Source: Candidatus Yonathbacteria bacterium RIFCSPLOWO2_01_FULL_47_33b
GTDB taxonomy: Bacteria; Patescibacteriota; Minisyncoccia; Phycocordibacterales; UBA1550
Assembly (NCBI GenBank): GCA_001823575.1
Contig: MHUW01000013.1
Span: forward strand, 1-35,052
Direction of reading: 5' to 3'
DNA length: 35,052 nt
Both the position numbers and the translations under genes were made by a program. The notes beneath the pieces are model-generated. The model ran no database searches, was not told the origin of the DNA, and saw only the letters and a list, made by a program, of their open reading frames with translations. Shown here piece by piece: positions 345-30,352 of this stretch. Within the stretch, counting starts at the first letter, position 1. Each line of letters starts with the position of its first letter.

Positions 345-2510
345 ATGGAACAACTGCCGCAAAGACTATCCGTTGAAGAACTACATGATTTGTCCGATGA
401 AAAGAAGCATACGCGGGGTGCTTTGAGCGACCTCAGTGCGGAGAAAATGCCACAGGAAATGAGTGAGGATCTTTCCGAAGAACCTCGTGGAATTTTGGAA
501 ACCTTGAAAGAGAAATCACAAGGTCTCATTGAGTCCTACGGCGGAATATCAAAGGTGAAAGAAGCTCTCCGTGAACGGCACTCATTTGATGTTCTCTCCG
601 CACATTTTGAAAAAGATGCGGTGCAGAATCTCAAAGAACACACGGAGGCGAAAGAAGTGTACGATACGCTTGCCATCAAGCAGATCAAAAGGAATGTTTC
701 TCTCGGCGGGTCTTCACCGGTCGCGCAAAACATTCTCAACAGATATCAAGAAGGCGCACAACACGAAGAAGAAGCGCTTAAAACTATCCAAGAAAACGAG
801 CCGATCCTCGCTCGCGCGCACGAGCTTCTCTCGTACCAAGAGGGGCTGTCCAAAGAGGGGCACATCTGCCCGCTTCCTTCTACCGTCGGCTACATCAAAA
901 GCATAGAAGAACGAATGATTACTGGCAAACCCGTGTTCCTCCACGGAGCGACCGGCACTGGGAAGACTTCACTTGCTCGCTATGCCACAAAGGAGTTGAC
1001 GGGCAAGGATGCTGAAATGGTGTACTGCTCACCACAGTTTCGCGAACAGCAGGTATGGTCCACGACGGGGCTTCGTGCGACCGAAGACGGCAAGGGTGTG
1101 GAGACGGTCGTCATCTACGGTCCGCTCGCTCGCGCAATGCGTGAGGGTAAAGCCATCATTTTTGACGAGTTCACGACATTGCCCAAAGAACAGATGGCGT
1201 TCATCAAGGGGGTGTTCGGGGTAAAGATTGGCGACAAGATTACTGTTCCCGGGAATGGCGAAATCGCCGTACAAAACGGGTTCCAGATGATATTCACCGC
1301 CAATCTGAAGTCCGAGAAAAATCAAGAACGAAGCGACCTCCCTCCAGAAATGGCGAGTGAGTTTGAGCAGAACAATATGGAGATTGGGTATGCAAGCACA
1401 GAGGAAATGTATGACACGATACTCGCGCGTCTCATCGACCGTAAAGGAAACCTCACGCTTTCATACGAGGATTTGCAAGACACGCTTCCCAAGTTTGTCT
1501 CAGCTATAAAAGAAGTTCAGATTGCATACGCAGGTATCTTGCCCGACGACGAAGCAAAAAAACTCGGCGTAATGGAAGCCAATGGAAGAGTGCAGGGACT
1601 TAAAAAGTTTGTAATGAGCCAGAGGTCCATCGAAGCGATCCTTGAAAGATGGAATGTTGAACAGACGAGAAATGCCGATGCAAACTTCAGAAACTTTCTC
1701 GACGATGCGCTCCAGACAGGCATCACCTTCAAAGAATATCCGGAAGCAGATCGCGAGCTCGTCGCAAAGATATTCGCCACAAAAGGATTTTTGAGGACCA
1801 AGAGTGAAAGCGACCTCGGGCTCAAGAGTGGTTCACTCAAAGGGCTCCACTCAACAGGGCAATACGAAGAGGTAAAAAAGCAGACGCTTTCTATAAAAGA
1901 TGTTGCCACGCTGGACCCGTTTCACACGAGAAAATCCAAAGAGCAAGAAGAGGCTGAGTCATTTGTTAAGGAAGAAATAGGAACAGAATCAAATCCTGAA
2001 GAACTCGAGTCCACCATCGCTCGCGTCCGTGAAGCAGGATTCCTCGACGCGTCATTTGAAGGTAAAGAAACTCATCGCCTCGCTATTGAAGCACTCCCCA
2101 AAGAAGAAGCAATCGAAGCATATCGAAAGAGTGGTGGTGAAACATATATATGGGCAGAGCTCGAAAAGAACATGCCCTACACAACACCAAAGGCAGAAAA
2201 GCTCGATGTGATACTCCTTGGCTTTGGTAAATCGGTCACAAGTGATGAAGCTCTTGCAGAAATGGAGAGACTTGGTGTTCGCCCCCTCACCTACGAGGAG
2301 CTTATTCAATACGGTATCGTAAACCCAGAAGCTCAGAAGAAAAACCCCCACGTTGCATTGGGAAGTAAACATTCCCTGGGCGGCGGTCCTCGCGCTCCGA
2401 TCCTCCGCGTCGGCGACGGCGGGCGCGGCCTGTGCGCCCTCCGTTGGGGCGGTGGCTGGGGCGGGGGGGTGCCGTTTCCCCGTTGTCCGCAAGTAGTGCT
2501 TTGGCTTTAG
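345..2510 (+). CDS. MoxR-like AAA+ ATPase with DGR-diversified C-terminal domain (DGR target 1)
   Basis: Walker A GATGTGKT, Walker B AIIFDEF, MIFTAN sensor-like motif. The C-terminal ~150 aa are homologous to the 29702-30352 product and end in VR1. A +1 G shifts the last ~15 codons; without it the gene would stop at 2496 with ...WGGGCRFPVVRK*. Confidence 0.88.
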   Translation: MEQLPQRLSVEELHDLSDEKKHTRGALSDLSAEKMPQEMSEDLSEEPRGILETLKEKSQGLIESYGGISKVKEALRERHSFDVLSAHFEKDAVQNLKEHTEAKEVYDTLAIKQIKRNVSLGGSSPVAQNILNRYQEGAQHEEEALKTIQENEPILARAHELLSYQEGLSKEGHICPLPSTVGYIKSIEERMITGKPVFLHGATGTGKTSLARYATKELTGKDAEMVYCSPQFREQQVWSTTGLRATEDGKGVETVVIYGPLARAMREGKAIIFDEFTTLPKEQMAFIKGVFGVKIGDKITVPGNGEIAVQNGFQMIFTANLKSEKNQERSDLPPEMASEFEQNNMEIGYASTEEMYDTILARLIDRKGNLTLSYEDLQDTLPKFVSAIKEVQIAYAGILPDDEAKKLGVMEANGRVQGLKKFVMSQRSIEAILERWNVEQTRNADANFRNFLDDALQTGITFKEYPEADRELVAKIFATKGFLRTKSESDLGLKSGSLKGLHSTGQYEEVKKQTLSIKDVATLDPFHTRKSKEQEEAESFVKEEIGTESNPEELESTIARVREAGFLDASFEGKETHRLAIEALPKEEAIEAYRKSGGETYIWAELEKNMPYTTPKAEKLDVILLGFGKSVTSDEALAEMERLGVRPLTYEELIQYGIVNPEAQKKNPHVALGSKHSLGGGPRAPILRVGDGGRGLCALRWGGGWGGGVPFPRCPQVVLWL
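2375..2492 (+). repeat. DGR variable region VR1
   Basis: Aligned by hand to TR 2862-2978. Mismatches fall only at TR adenines (24 of 26 changed: 20 to G, 2 to C, 2 to T) plus one inserted G. Confidence 0.96.
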
Positions 2511-2861
2511 ACACTATGCTTTTGCTTTAAATTTTTGACTTTTGGTCGCGCTTCAATCGACACTGCGCGACATGATTTTGCAAAATCAAAAGTTTTTGGC
2601 ATGCTATATCTTGAGAGTAGATATAGCGTATACGGATAGTGATGTTTGTATGCCATCGAAATCAGTAGGCTATGGACGAGAGTTTTTGTGCGCATGTTGC
2701 ATAGAAAGAGTGTCTATAGTTTCTCTAAAAAAGAAATCTACTTGGCGCATACATGTTGGGTATTGTTATCCCAGTAGGTCATTCTGCTGAATGAGATACC
2801 GACTTAAATACAATGCTTGGTTGCGACTGGGCATGGTGGTCTGCACGCATATATGCGAAAT
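2510..2861 (+). ncRNA. Putative structured leader of the DGR template RNA
   Basis: No convincing ORF. Several stems, e.g. GCTATATC-ttgagagta-GATATAGC, TCGCGC...GCGCGA, GGTAT...ATACC, TCATTC-tgct-GAATGA. Confidence 0.45.
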
Positions 2862-2978
2862 CCTGGACGGCAATCCTCACGCTCCGATCCTCAACGTCAA
2901 CGACGACGAGCGCAACCTGAACGCCAACCATTGGGGCAATGACTGGGACGAGAGGTACCGTTTCCCCGTTGTCCGCAA
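2862..2978 (+). repeat. DGR template repeat (TR)
   Basis: Adenine-rich AAC/GAC/AAT codons; the non-A scaffold is identical to VR1; lies upstream of the RT gene; ends in the shared TTTCCCCGTTGTCCGCAA block (IMH-like). Confidence 0.96.
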
Positions 2979-2987
2979 CTTTATTTC

Positions 2988-3410
2988 TTACTCCCGCGCT
3001 TTTGCGCGGGAGTTTTCTTTTTCTGTTTGCGCAAGTATCTGGTTGTGCCAGCCACCGAGCATGCGCCCTACTTCGAAAAGCTTTTCAGAGAGCGCAATGA
3101 ACTTTTTTGCATCGAGTGCGTCGACTTTGTTTGCGACACGAAGGAGGAGTTTTACCGTGTCGAGTAGCTGAATTGCTTTTTGAATGTGAACGGTCTTGTG
3201 TTCCTTTTTTACAAAAAGTGCCGAGGATATATAGCACATGATTTCACACAAGAGAGAGTCTATTTTTGCACCGAGTGAGTAGCGGTGGATTTTTGGAAAG
3301 TGTAGAATGTAGGAATGCCACAAAGTATACGCAACTTCAATCTTGAGAATGAGGGGTGGGATGTCTGTGGGTATACGGGGGGGGGGTGGACATAAAGGAA
3401 AGTATACCAT
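2988..3410 (-). CDS. avd: Avd-like DGR accessory protein (four-helix bundle)
   Basis: HFPKIHRYSLGAKIDSLLCEIMCYISSALF...KAIQLLDTVKLLLRVANKVDALDAKKFIALSEKLFEVGRMLGGWHNQ matches the Avd/four-helix-bundle pattern; the start codon is uncertain. Confidence 0.82.
   Translation of the reverse strand: MVYFPLCPPPPRIPTDIPPLILKIEVAYTLWHSYILHFPKIHRYSLGAKIDSLLCEIMCYISSALFVKKEHKTVHIQKAIQLLDTVKLLLRVANKVDALDAKKFIALSEKLFEVGRMLGGWHNQILAQTEKENSRAKARE
2990..3013 (+). terminator. Strong hairpin immediately downstream of TR
   Basis: ACTCCCGCGC-TTTT-GCGCGGGAGT followed by TTTCTTTTT. Confidence 0.7.
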
Positions 3411-4320
3411 ACAGAATGTACCCAACGCCCGTTCTTTTGAAGAAATCATCTCATACGAAAATTTATTGCGCGCGTGGGAAGATTTTATAAAAGGAAAGCG
3501 TGGCAGGAGAGACGTGGATATGTTTGCTCGTACATTGTCAGATAACTTGTGGCAACTTCACTTTGATTTAAAGAATAGCACTTATGCGCATGGAGGGTAC
3601 CATGAGTACACTATTTGTGATCCAAAAAAACGTACGATACACAAGGCAAGTGTGAGAGACAGGGTGGTACATAGACTAGTCTACAATGCTCTCTATCGGT
3701 ATTTTGATAAGCGGTTCATTCATGACTCGCACTCATCGCGAAAAGGGAAGGGGACACACAGAGCGCGCGACAGGTTTCGGCTTTTTGCGCAGAAAGTTAG
3801 TAAAAATTATACAAAGCAATGTTTTGTCTTGAAATTTGATATACAGAAATGTTTTGCGAGTATTGACCAGACAACGCTTTTGGAAATTCTTAAAAAACAT
3901 ATTGCTGATGATGAGGTGTATGACATTGTTGCTATAATCATTGGGAGCTTTAAATGCGGGCTTCCGCTTGGGAACCTCACTTCCCAACTTTTTATCAATG
4001 TGTACCTCCACGAGCTTGATTGGTTTTGTAAACATACCATTCGCGCAAAATATTATTTGCGTTACGCTGACGATGTTGTTATTGTATCGGATGATGAAGA
4101 TGAGCTCGACGTTGCGTACAGAATAATCGCTGATTTTTTGTTAAGCAAACTTTATCTTACGACCCACAAAAAGAGTGTGGCTACCATTTACCAAGGGGTT
4201 GACGTGTTGGGCGTGATATTCTTCCCCCGATATGGTATTTTAAGGAGAAGGACGAGGGTGCGGATGAGGGTGCGAGAACAACATGGAAAATATCTTCAAA
4301 CAAGAAATGGCGCAGAATAG
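3343..4320 (+). CDS. DGR reverse transcriptase
   Basis: HKASVRDRVVHRLVYN, DSHSSRKGKGTHRA, LKFDIQKCFASID, GLPLGNLTSQLFINVYLHELD, YLRYADDVVIVSDD, GVDVLGVIFFPRYGILRRRT; the exact start is uncertain. Confidence 0.95.
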   Translation: MRMRGGMSVGIRGGGGHKGKYTIQNVPNARSFEEIISYENLLRAWEDFIKGKRGRRDVDMFARTLSDNLWQLHFDLKNSTYAHGGYHEYTICDPKKRTIHKASVRDRVVHRLVYNALYRYFDKRFIHDSHSSRKGKGTHRARDRFRLFAQKVSKNYTKQCFVLKFDIQKCFASIDQTTLLEILKKHIADDEVYDIVAIIIGSFKCGLPLGNLTSQLFINVYLHELDWFCKHTIRAKYYLRYADDVVIVSDDEDELDVAYRIIADFLLSKLYLTTHKKSVATIYQGVDVLGVIFFPRYGILRRRTRVRMRVREQHGKYLQTRNGAE

Positions 4321-6181
4321 CTCGAAGGACGGGGTTGTTCCGCGTGAGGGTAAAGACATCAGTACCGAGTATTTTAATACGCACCGGGACTTTTTTGAGA
4401 CTTATGCGCGTGGCGGGGTGAAGGTGGAGCCGGCTCCAGTAGGGCTTGACACCTTTGCGTTTAATCTGGAGAAAAACACGATTTATGTGAACGATATGTT
4501 TTACCGAGAAGGAAGAGGGTTTAGCGACGAGAAAACCGCTTTTGCAGTGTGTCACGAGGTAGAGCATTTTTTTGAAAAAAAGATGATGCTTACGGAGAAG
4601 GGAGGTGGCGAATACTTTTCAAAGTATTTGGAAAAAATTGGAAAGTCTCGCGCATATGGGCTTTTGGATAATTGTGTCGCTGATATTCGAGAAAACAGAT
4701 CGGTTGTGGAAAAGACTGGCAAGGAGTTTAGGAATACTGAAGAAAAAATGTACCGTGAGGATTTATTTCCGAGTGCCGACTTTCGGGATGCTCCGCTCCA
4801 TATACAATTTGCGCAGGCGATACTGCGTGAACGAAGACTACCCGATGAGCAATGCCTGGTGGCGGATGAGGTGCGCGCAAAACTCGATGCACTTGATGGT
4901 ATTGTAAATAAAAATAAAGTAAAACTTCTCGACGCAATGACGGGTACTAACGTGCCTATGTCGCTTCGGCTGAAACTCCTTGATCAATATGTCGTGCCGA
5001 TGATGGAGGAGCTTAAGAAGAAGGATCTGGAAAACGAAAAGGAGAAAAGTAAAGAGAGAGGGGAAAGTGGCGATAAGAAAGAGGGAGGCGAGGAACAGGC
5101 AGGTGCTCCGAAAGATGGCGAAGGAGAGCTTGACCCGAACGAGGTCTTCAAAGAAGCATATGAACGGGCGGAAAAAGGCACGCTCGGGTCGGTTCCTCAC
5201 GAAGCGGAGGAAGCGACATTTAAGGAGTGGCAGAAGGGAGAAAAAGAAAATAGTGTTGAAACACGCGATAAAGAATACGCGGAGTCTTTGGGTGTGAGTG
5301 AAAAAGCACTTGATGATTATCGCGCTATCAACAAGACGCTGCAGAATGTCATCAACCCCGAAACGAACCAGTCTGTCGTGGATGACTTGCGTGAACTGTT
5401 CAGGAGGATTATTGCCAAGAGAAAAAAGAAATGGATTGTTCCGAAATATCCGCTTGAGGAAGGGGATACTTTAGATGACCCTGTGGGCGCGTATGTGGAG
5501 GGGATGCGGGGGAATTTCAAACCGAAGGTTTGGGAGGAACAGGAGATCAAGGAAATTCGTGGAAATAAATGTGGCGAGGTGGAGATATCGTTTGTGTGCG
5601 ATGGCTCTGGAAGTATGAACGACGGAGGCGGATTGAAAAGGAAAGAACAGCAGAGAGCGATGGTGCTTGCGATGGAGGCGCTCAAGGATTTTAACGATAT
5701 GGTGGATGAGGAATCGGGGTCGCTTACTGAGCCCATTGATATAAAAACGGAGGTCTACAAGTTTCAGGGTGAGCAAAGTGACAGTGAACCTTTGAAACAA
5801 ATGGGGCGCGAGCTTTCCGAAAAAGACCGGATAACGGTGTGTGGCGAGCTCTCGAGTACGCCGGGGAGTACGACAGATTTTGTTCCGCTTGAAACTATCA
5901 ACATACAATTGCCCGATGAGTCTCTGGGCAAGATACGCGACGGGGAGTTGAAAAAGATTGTCATTGTGTTGACGGACGGGGAGAGTGATGATTCGCGGAG
6001 GGTTAAAGATACCATAGCATCGCTTCGTGAGAAAGGGGTCGTGGTGGTCGGCTTGGGGATTACGAGCGCGGGTGGGGCTGTCCTGGAAACATACGCCCCC
6101 AACGCTCTCGTCGTGGAGGATGCAAAAGATCTGCCAAGAATGCTCGGCGAGCTTTTGGAGGATCATTTGAAGGAGTTGTAA
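4283..6181 (+). CDS. VWA-domain protein with N-terminal metallopeptidase-like HEVEH motif
   Basis: VWA MIDAS ISFVCDGSGSMND and IVIVLTDGESDD; AVCHEVEHFFEKK (HExxH); low-complexity charged linker between them. Confidence 0.85.
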   Translation: MENIFKQEMAQNSSKDGVVPREGKDISTEYFNTHRDFFETYARGGVKVEPAPVGLDTFAFNLEKNTIYVNDMFYREGRGFSDEKTAFAVCHEVEHFFEKKMMLTEKGGGEYFSKYLEKIGKSRAYGLLDNCVADIRENRSVVEKTGKEFRNTEEKMYREDLFPSADFRDAPLHIQFAQAILRERRLPDEQCLVADEVRAKLDALDGIVNKNKVKLLDAMTGTNVPMSLRLKLLDQYVVPMMEELKKKDLENEKEKSKERGESGDKKEGGEEQAGAPKDGEGELDPNEVFKEAYERAEKGTLGSVPHEAEEATFKEWQKGEKENSVETRDKEYAESLGVSEKALDDYRAINKTLQNVINPETNQSVVDDLRELFRRIIAKRKKKWIVPKYPLEEGDTLDDPVGAYVEGMRGNFKPKVWEEQEIKEIRGNKCGEVEISFVCDGSGSMNDGGGLKRKEQQRAMVLAMEALKDFNDMVDEESGSLTEPIDIKTEVYKFQGEQSDSEPLKQMGRELSEKDRITVCGELSSTPGSTTDFVPLETINIQLPDESLGKIRDGELKKIVIVLTDGESDDSRRVKDTIASLREKGVVVVGLGITSAGGAVLETYAPNALVVEDAKDLPRMLGELLEDHLKEL

Positions 6182-28972: not shown

Positions 28973-29521
28973 TTACAAACCAAAGTGTTTTTTGATTGGG
29001 TCATCTCCCTCTAGCTCTTTAGCGGTAATTATTCGAATGTGACGGCGTACGCTGAAGCAGTCTGCCGCAAAATCAATTTCTTTTTTGCATGGGTAGGGGG
29101 TAATGAATACTGATTTTTGATACTGCACACACCCTAGTTTTTTAAGGGCTAGATTTATTGCCAGGCGAGCTGTGCGCTTGTCTTCAGGGATATCAAACAT
29201 AACGATTCTCCACAAACCATCCCATTTGGGTTGCTCGGCAATCTTCATTGAAAAAAGATGGTATCGCATAGCACGCACCTTGCCTGTTTCGGTGAGTATG
29301 TATTGTTCCTCGCCCGCAACCACTCTCTTTTTGATAAACTTACTTTCTTCAAGCCTTACCATAGATCTTTTGATTTTCCATTTATCCTTTGTATTTTTTG
29401 GATCAAAATATTTAAAAAGCTGCACCGCGTTCGGAGCAGTAACGGCGATAGTGAGAAACCCAACGACAAGGATCGTTGAAAGCAAAATCTCGCTGACTTC
29501 GTTTTTAGTAAATTTTTTCAT
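28973..29521 (-). CDS. PaaX-like regulator with Cas2-like C-terminal domain
   Basis: N-terminal TM and wHTH-like region (IKRSMVRLEESKFIKKRVVAGEEQYILTETGK); C-terminal DGLWRIVMFDIPEDKRTARLAINLALKKLGCVQYQKSVFITPYPC. Confidence 0.75.
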   Translation of the reverse strand: MKKFTKNEVSEILLSTILVVGFLTIAVTAPNAVQLFKYFDPKNTKDKWKIKRSMVRLEESKFIKKRVVAGEEQYILTETGKVRAMRYHLFSMKIAEQPKWDGLWRIVMFDIPEDKRTARLAINLALKKLGCVQYQKSVFITPYPCKKEIDFAADCFSVRRHIRIITAKELEGDDPIKKHFGL

Positions 29522-29546
29522 GTTGGTTGTTTGCGGGTAATTTAAT

Positions 29547-29592
29547 TACTATCTACTTATAGCATACTATAGTACTGTATAAGTAGATAGTA
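29547..29592. repeat. Near-perfect 46-bp palindrome, copy B
   Basis: TACTATCTACTTATAGCATACTATAGTACTGTATAAGTAGATAGTA; shares 26 contiguous nt with copy A. Confidence 0.93.
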
Positions 29593-29637
29593 GGGGAATG
29601 AAAAAGTTGGGATTTTGCGATTAGTGAGCACAAGGGC

Positions 29638-29668
29638 TTGACGCGAGACTCGGGGGGGGGGCTATACT
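29638..29668 (+). promoter_or_regulatory. Predicted promoter with G10 tract in the spacer
   Basis: TTGACG - 19 nt including GGGGGGGGGG - TATACT, 34 nt upstream of ATG 29702. Confidence 0.65.
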
Positions 29669-29701
29669 ATAGGGATTAGTAATACGTAGCCACCAAATAT
29701 T

Positions 29702-30352
29702 ATGGAATCAGCACCGCAACATCATCGAGAGGGAATTCAGGAACTTTTGGATAAAGCGTATGACGAGGGTCACCGCGATAACGTCGCGATGAAAGAAGGT
29801 GAAGTAGTAGAAGAAAGAGTCGGGCATATGGATGACAAAGAAATGCATGGCAAGTCTTCACAGGAAAGAACTTTGAGTTTTCTTCGTGATAGGGGCTACC
29901 TCGACACCTCGTTTGAAGGAAAGGAAATCCACCACCTTGTCGTTGAATCACTCTCTAAAAAAGAAGCGTTTGATCGCTACTGCAGTAGCGGCAGGACATC
30001 TGTATGGGATGGGTTGGAAGAGAATATGCCCTACATGACGCCGGAAGGGACAACACTTGACGTGATGATTATGAAGTTCAACAAAGTCATTGGAAGCGAT
30101 GAGGCAATCACCGAAATGGCAACTCTTGGTGTACGCCCTCTCACTTACGAGGAACTCATCCAGTACGGTATTGCATACCCAACACACCAAGAAAAAGACG
30201 CTTTTAACGGGCTGGGAAGCAAACACACCTTTGAGAACGGCAATGTGCTTACCCCGCGTCTCGTCTTGAGCGGTGGCTATCGTGTGCTGTGTGCCAATTC
30301 TTGGGACAGCGATTGGAGCGAATGGTGTCGTTTTCCTGTTGTTCGCAAGTAG
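29702..30352 (+). CDS. DGR-target-like protein (paralog of the MoxR target C-terminus, carrying VR2)
   Basis: LRDRGYLDTSFEGKEIHHLVVESLSKKEAFDRY...LGVRPLTYEELIQYGIAYP...GLGSKHTF...WDSDWSEWCRFPVVRK* parallels the 345-2510 C-terminus. Confidence 0.9.
   Translation: MESAPQHHREGIQELLDKAYDEGHRDNVAMKEGEVVEERVGHMDDKEMHGKSSQERTLSFLRDRGYLDTSFEGKEIHHLVVESLSKKEAFDRYCSSGRTSVWDGLEENMPYMTPEGTTLDVMIMKFNKVIGSDEAITEMATLGVRPLTYEELIQYGIAYPTHQEKDAFNGLGSKHTFENGNVLTPRLVLSGGYRVLCANSWDSDWSEWCRFPVVRK
30234..30350 (+). repeat. Diverged VR-like region (VR2)
   Basis: Codon-by-codon alignable with TR/VR1 but with many non-adenine differences. Confidence 0.75.

Follow-up and report, generated by a model that had tools for sequence, protein, structure and literature searches.

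The closest described counterparts of the locus reported here are the diversity-generating retroelements (DGRs) of Patescibacteria/CPR placed in clade 2, in which a reverse transcriptase (RT), a bAvd accessory protein, a template repeat (TR) and a C-terminal variable repeat (VR) changed specifically at adenines are found in cellular hosts, with targets of C-type-lectin-like fold (PMC8144416). The genetic parts and the kind of host recur in the window, the whole 35,052-nt stretch of DNA that was analysed, a target of such a fold is suggested by weak model matches, and the window differs from the clade 2 DGRs in having a homopolymer tract inside avd and at the start of the RT gene; the words homopolymer and frameshift are absent from the main text of PMC8144416. 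The DGR of the Bordetella phage BPP-1 is likewise similar in its adenine-directed errors, among which A>G is prominent (PMC12875486), but differs in its target, a phage tail-fibre protein. With regard to the tract, the nearest parallels are the contingency loci of Neisseria and Campylobacter, where G/C homopolymers of at least 7 residues lie in 5′ coding sequence or in promoter spacers, as in the window, and where reading frames are random between loci, as in the DGR set compared here (PMC5084427, PMC4965091). Those loci switch surface structures, whereas the element that would be switched here is a targeted mutator.

On the + strand, the cassette is ordered as the AAA_5 target gene with VR1, the TR, avd (on the minus strand), the RT gene and a VWA gene. 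The target gene (345–2510, +), taken from the ORF list, codes for an AAA_5 (MoxR/dynein-related) ATPase (PF07728, E = 3e-12) with a C-terminal variable domain, and the 118-nt VR1 (2375–2492, +) occupies the C-terminal end of this gene. The 117-nt TR is found at 2862–2978 (+), followed directly at its 3′ side by a GC-rich hairpin and a T-run, recognized by eye, which form a possible terminator (2992–3016, +). The avd gene (2988–3449, –), divergent from the RT gene, encodes a bAvd-like accessory variability determinant: PF22296 scored 45.2 bits, above the Pfam gathering score of 40, which identifies an Avd-type accessory protein of the kind that belongs to DGRs, and NF033474 scored 55.2 bits (E = 7e-15), under the curated NCBIfam cut-off of 80. 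The RT (3343–4320, +; PF00078, RVT_1, E = 5e-20) presents the motifs LPLGNLTSQ and YADD, which are kept in its relatives and correspond to the SQ in motif 4 and the YxDD of DGR-type RTs. The tract, ten Gs on the + strand (G10; C10 on the avd strand) at 3377–3386, overlaps the 5′ ends of both rt and avd, and is proposed below to be a phase-variation tract.

This locus is a genuine and complete chromosomal DGR of Paceibacteria (Parcubacteria group), whose host is an ultra-small member of the Patescibacteria, because substitutions relative to the TR fall on adenines only (24 of 24 in VR1), the RT and bAvd families are both present, and a second VR, on contig C1, carries 15 changes, all 15 at TR adenines. 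The assignment of the earlier note, which had read the region as a DGR, is thus borne out by RVT_1 with LPLGNLTSQ and YADD, by bAvd and by the A-only substitutions from TR to VR. It also fits the predicted fold of a homologous target of 216 aa: the variable domain had a mean pLDDT of 83 in its AlphaFold model, and all 50 matches listed in a Foldseek search of the PDB were C-type-lectin-like, if weak (best E 0.012). A matching cassette of TR, avd (–) and RT (+) was found in a relative of the same genus (G011), behind another AAA_5 protein bearing the same variable domain and adjoining a CobT-type VWA gene. The AAA part of the window target had no homologue among 15 genus relatives, and no viral relatives of the window RT were found in a single-sequence search. 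In the window, a VWA-domain protein (4283–6181, +; PF00092, E = 8e-9) adjoins the AAA target region, so that, of the three components of a MoxR-VWA ternary conflict system (a MoxR-type AAA, a VWA protein and a VMAP-type third component), AAA_5 and VWA are present according to Pfam. These neighbours suggest a MoxR-VWA type module surrounding the DGR cassette, in which the VWA protein is likely the functional partner of the AAA target. AAA/VWA conflict systems with DGR-diversified parts are said to have a comparable layout, with an NTPase target and a VWA partner next to a DGR; the window differs from them in its unicellular, ultra-small host and in its AAA_5 rather than STAND NTPase.

The alignment of TR with VR1, computed with a scoring matrix that leaves TR adenines free, revealed that 24 of the 28 aligned TR adenines were changed in VR1 (20 A>G, 2 A>C and 2 A>T) and four unchanged, with no substitution at any C, G or T position of the TR; the chance of 24 substitutions all falling on the 28 adenines of 117 positions is about 4e-21. 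Within the core, 24 of 26 TR adenines were changed, and the counts made by hand in the earlier note (24 of 26; 20 G, 2 C, 2 T; no other base substituted) came out the same. Its full-length alignment was right in its coordinates, but the alignment is not free of gaps, and one extra G in VR1 had been overlooked. This nucleotide lies in a G7 run (GGGGGGG, 2463–2469, +), where the TR predicts six Gs if every A became G, and it shifts the frame of the AAA+ target by +1, replacing the conserved RFPVVRK end. As assembled, VR1 has the terminal residues VPFPRCPQVVLWL, and the target runs to ...WGGGVPFPRCPQVVLWL*, ending at 2510; without the extra G, the frame would end in ...CRFPVVRK with a stop codon at 2493–2495, matching the end of the C1 VR. 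Other family members, namely the C1 VR, the second target gene of the window and the G011 target, also have RFPVVRK or a similar sequence at their ends. The Gly/Arg-rich peptide of the earlier note is consequently correct up to the extra G at 2463–2469 and wrong beyond the frameshift. VR1 is a copy with an extreme mutation load and, in the assembly, a frameshift, and its extra G may be a homopolymer consensus error.

When 134 DGRs were scored alike for the share of changed core adenines, VR1 had the highest value of all (0.92, against 0.85 for the next and a median of 0.58), in agreement with the unusually high mutation load that had been claimed for it; together with the frameshift in the assembly, this speaks for the over-mutated allele that had been offered as one reading. 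Gaps in the core were seen in 15 of the 134 VRs. The A>G share of VR1, 0.83, ranks in about the top ten of the 134, so the strong bias to G was rightly described as high and is not unique, given that the 2,268 changes pooled from the class comprise 1266 to G, 411 to C and 591 to T (56%, 18% and 26%). The mutation load of VR1 is thus extreme and its direction ordinary. In the reconstituted BPP-1 DGR, A>G is also the commonest change, with misincorporation of C predominating (PMC12875486). The other reading, taken as that of a specially evolved G-rich variable face, was rejected, as A>G dominates the class pool and the frameshift of the allele removes the conserved C-terminus.

The earlier note had named substitutions at non-adenine positions and a lack of VR diversity as observations that would speak against a DGR; there were none of the former, and the same genome holds a different second VR. 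Contig C1 (L004 1–212) starts with 98 nt identical to window positions 2287–2384 and then continues into this VR, which has 15 substitutions, all of them at adenines, and an insertion of 3 nt that keeps the frame. An insertion of this length is comparable to the indels in multiples of three at AAC repeats of BPP-1, for whose 3-nt forms an origin by slippage was proposed (PMC12875486). Judged from its sequence, the C1 VR uses the same TR as VR1, which gives the window TR at least one further VR. VR1 and the C1 VR could instead belong to a single gene, as two alleles present in a mixed population, in keeping with the exact 98-nt identity, which resembles a branch of a de Bruijn graph, and with the finding that no other contig of the MAG enters the shared sequence. 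We hold this to be rather unlikely, as the downstream DNA is wholly different, TR and RT in the window and type IV pilus genes on C1, where the VR lies just upstream of pilC and the contig breaks. Moreover, pilB directly precedes pilC in the closest relative, while in the present genome pilB is on contig C20, with a PaaX-like gene and a long gene behind it, the latter reaching the end of the contig. This long gene, which we take to resemble CPR DGR targets, makes an insertion between pilB and pilC likely, and a second target gene at that place is favoured over an allele of the AAA target.

Runs of at least nine Gs are rare in this genome, with seven separate tracts, three of which are at DGR parts: the first RT, the second RT and the promoter of the second target gene of the window. 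A discovery look at 63 DGR loci of the class found G8–11 at the corresponding place in 23 of them, as well as RT genes whose frame is lost precisely at a G9/G10 or (GA)n tract. A fixed test was defined for simple-sequence repeats (SSRs), namely G/C runs of at least 8 and dinucleotide repeats of at least 6 units (3–5-mers repeated at least 5 times were added in the script), in an RT interval reaching from –160 to +950 about the ENLLRAW motif, which is conserved. Since the tract hypothesis arose from the discovery set, the position of the tract is tested only by the other two, a replication set and a third set. Under the fixed test, the discovery set had an SSR in the RT interval in 35/63 loci, at 21 times the density of the flanks; the 36 new loci of the replication set had one in 16, at 20 times the flank density. 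In the third set, 73 distinct loci from named Patescibacteria genomes, SSRs were present in 68, with a single SSR in 473 kb of flanks; as these loci were picked for RTs similar to the intact ones of the window's clade, this proportion (93%) describes the clade, and the class-wide one is nearer one half. Taking all sets together, 119 of 172 Patescibacteria DGRs had a tract (G8–13 or (GA)n) in the RT interval, at 20–400 times the density of the flanks, and 53 had none by the fixed definition. Among 64 distinct DGR-type RT loci on viral contigs, a tract was found in three; these three DGR RTs with a G tract (L325, L326 and L331), filed as viral, may be misfiled Patescibacteria DNA. Lengths ranged from 8 to 13 across relatives and differed even between the most similar loci (four of seven close pairs; G10 in the window and G9 in G011). 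As in contingency loci, a long tract occupies a 5′ coding or regulatory position, at a density that greatly exceeds the background; its length is variable, and its gene is seen in on and off frames across genomes.

Alternatively, sequencing or assembly errors in homopolymers could have produced the tract lengths, the random frames of avd and the additional G in VR1. This view draws on the nature of the data, all of which are assembled MAGs with error-prone homopolymers, on the place of the extra G within a G7 run and on the gapped VR cores. It is, in our judgement, very improbable, as such errors would not concentrate long G/C tracts at one and the same place, in about 100 divergent loci, when 1.3 Mb of flanks are almost free of them, and they leave the RT breaks at (GA)n repeats unexplained.

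The relation of the tract to avd was uniform. In the 96 tract loci where avd was found, it lay on the strand opposite the RT, and the C tract ended a few codons 5′ of the conserved avd domain in an open frame (96/96 for both). The tract fell within the avd reading frame in 95 of 95 testable loci, and an ATG-led frame existed at tract length n–1, n or n+1 in all 95, against 36 ± 5 with shuffled upstream sequence. At the assembled length, however, avd was in frame in only 29–30 of the 95 (in-frame ATG within 75 nt), whereas avd genes without a tract had such an ATG in 45/51 cases, usually 18 nt before the domain (p = 8e-12). The 29/95 does not differ from the one third expected (p = 0.59); this statistic pools all three sets and treats loci as independent, which those of the same genus are not. 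As for the RT, 8 of 9 genes with an SSR inside the coding sequence were frame-broken, as opposed to 2 of 163 others, the break sites being read individually for six genes. Tracts of (GA)n were located inside seven RT genes (L083, L095, L099, L107, L122, L208 and L237), most of them just before motif 4 (about +500 to +527) and that of L083 at +361. In 68 of 98 relatives an in-frame RT start codon lies downstream of the tract, which leaves the RT frame unaffected there. In the window, the RT frame is intact at G10, beginning with the ATG at 3349, and avd is open both at C10, with an ATG 24 nt 5′ of the tract, and at C9, with one 7 nt 5′ of it, and closed at C11, so that its present phase cannot be called off.

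An ordinary DGR whose homopolymer has a constant role, in ribosome binding, RNA structure or a poly-proline start of Avd, and switches nothing, would account for the purine-rich composition of the tract on the RT strand (120 of 121 SSRs) and for its frequent position 5–30 nt before an RT ATG, a position at which G-rich sequence might serve as a kind of Shine-Dalgarno element. On the other hand, if the tract had a fixed function in protein or RNA, avd would not be out of frame in two of every three loci, a need for poly-proline would not demand a pure C tract, and the (GA)n and G tracts inside RT coding sequences break the frame exactly where they stand. This explanation is accordingly regarded as improbable.

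It is instead probable that Patescibacteria DGRs are phase-variable mutators, in which a tract in avd and/or rt randomly switches hypermutation on and off, mainly because the one third of avd genes in frame equals the expectation for random tract length. The evidence consists of MAG assemblies and of lengths compared between species, some of which may be homopolymer consensus errors. According to the proposed mechanism, the RT and Avd would miscopy adenines of the TR RNA, and the resulting cDNA would replace the VR at the end of the AAA+ ATPase target. With G10 (C10 on the avd strand) placed in the first avd codons and at the 5′ end of the RT gene, slipped-strand changes of tract length within populations would alternately restore and destroy the frame of avd, as well as that of rt in some relatives. 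Off phases would presumably lose Avd, only part of the population would have an active mutator at a time, and populations would alternate between diversifying and frozen states. The explanation as a whole, a complete DGR with an over-mutated, frameshifted VR1 and a machinery that is most likely phase-variable, is considered quite probable.

In the literature on DGRs with phase variation, SSRs or slippage, and on phase variation in CPR, no description of such a system was found, although a mention by Paul et al. (2017) is possible. Slippage-prone repeats are reported from a CPR surface protein in which no DGR is involved (PMC6851277), and Roux et al. discussed alternating phases of diversification and selection for DGRs (PMC8144416). 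Such an alternation bears on the question of how useful variants escape destruction by DGRs, and a slippery tract, if it acts as proposed, would supply a simple genetic mechanism for it. The tract would also add a second layer of programmed variability, with one mutability controlling another, and the apparent breakage of many avd and some rt genes in assemblies would reflect an off state instead of decay.

Tracts were also found at target genes and elsewhere in the genome. A second target-family gene of the window (29702–30352, +; 216 aa) has a diverged, VR-like end, which was rejected as a VR of the present TR for its many non-A differences. A G10 tract (29652–29661, +) lies between the –35-like TTGACG and the –10-like TATACT of this gene, with a spacer of 19, and the same layout recurs in the G003, G013 and G002 loci. 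A uniform –35/–10 promoter around the RT tracts was considered and dismissed, as no consistent –35 was present, so the promoter-spacer model is restricted to the target genes of the window and of those three loci. In the region 28973–30352, a PaaX/Cas2-like gene is divergent from the second target, and a palindrome and the –35/G10/–10 promoter are placed between them; the PaaX-like gene after pilB on C20 is likewise next to a possible DGR target. A genus promoter of the form TTGACA-N8/9-G8-10-TACAAT, with a spacer of 17–19, was noted at L035 7556, L036 6725 and L198 1268; the L035 and L036 genes behind it belong to the target family, and those two genomes yielded no relative of the window RT.

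A second DGR of the genome is split between contigs C15 and C10 (L079 1–2100 and L080 1–370), with a 71-nt overlap at the contig break within its RT gene. It has a divergent avd with G10 at its start, a candidate TR/VR pair and a 201-aa target, with a stretch of N in the VR of the latter. The other G9–G11 tracts of the genome (L143 1501, that is, contig C1:15610; L191; L192; L156) are located before or near gene starts. The occurrence of G9–G11 tracts at apparent secreted, surface or sensor genes suggests wider phase variation in this lineage.
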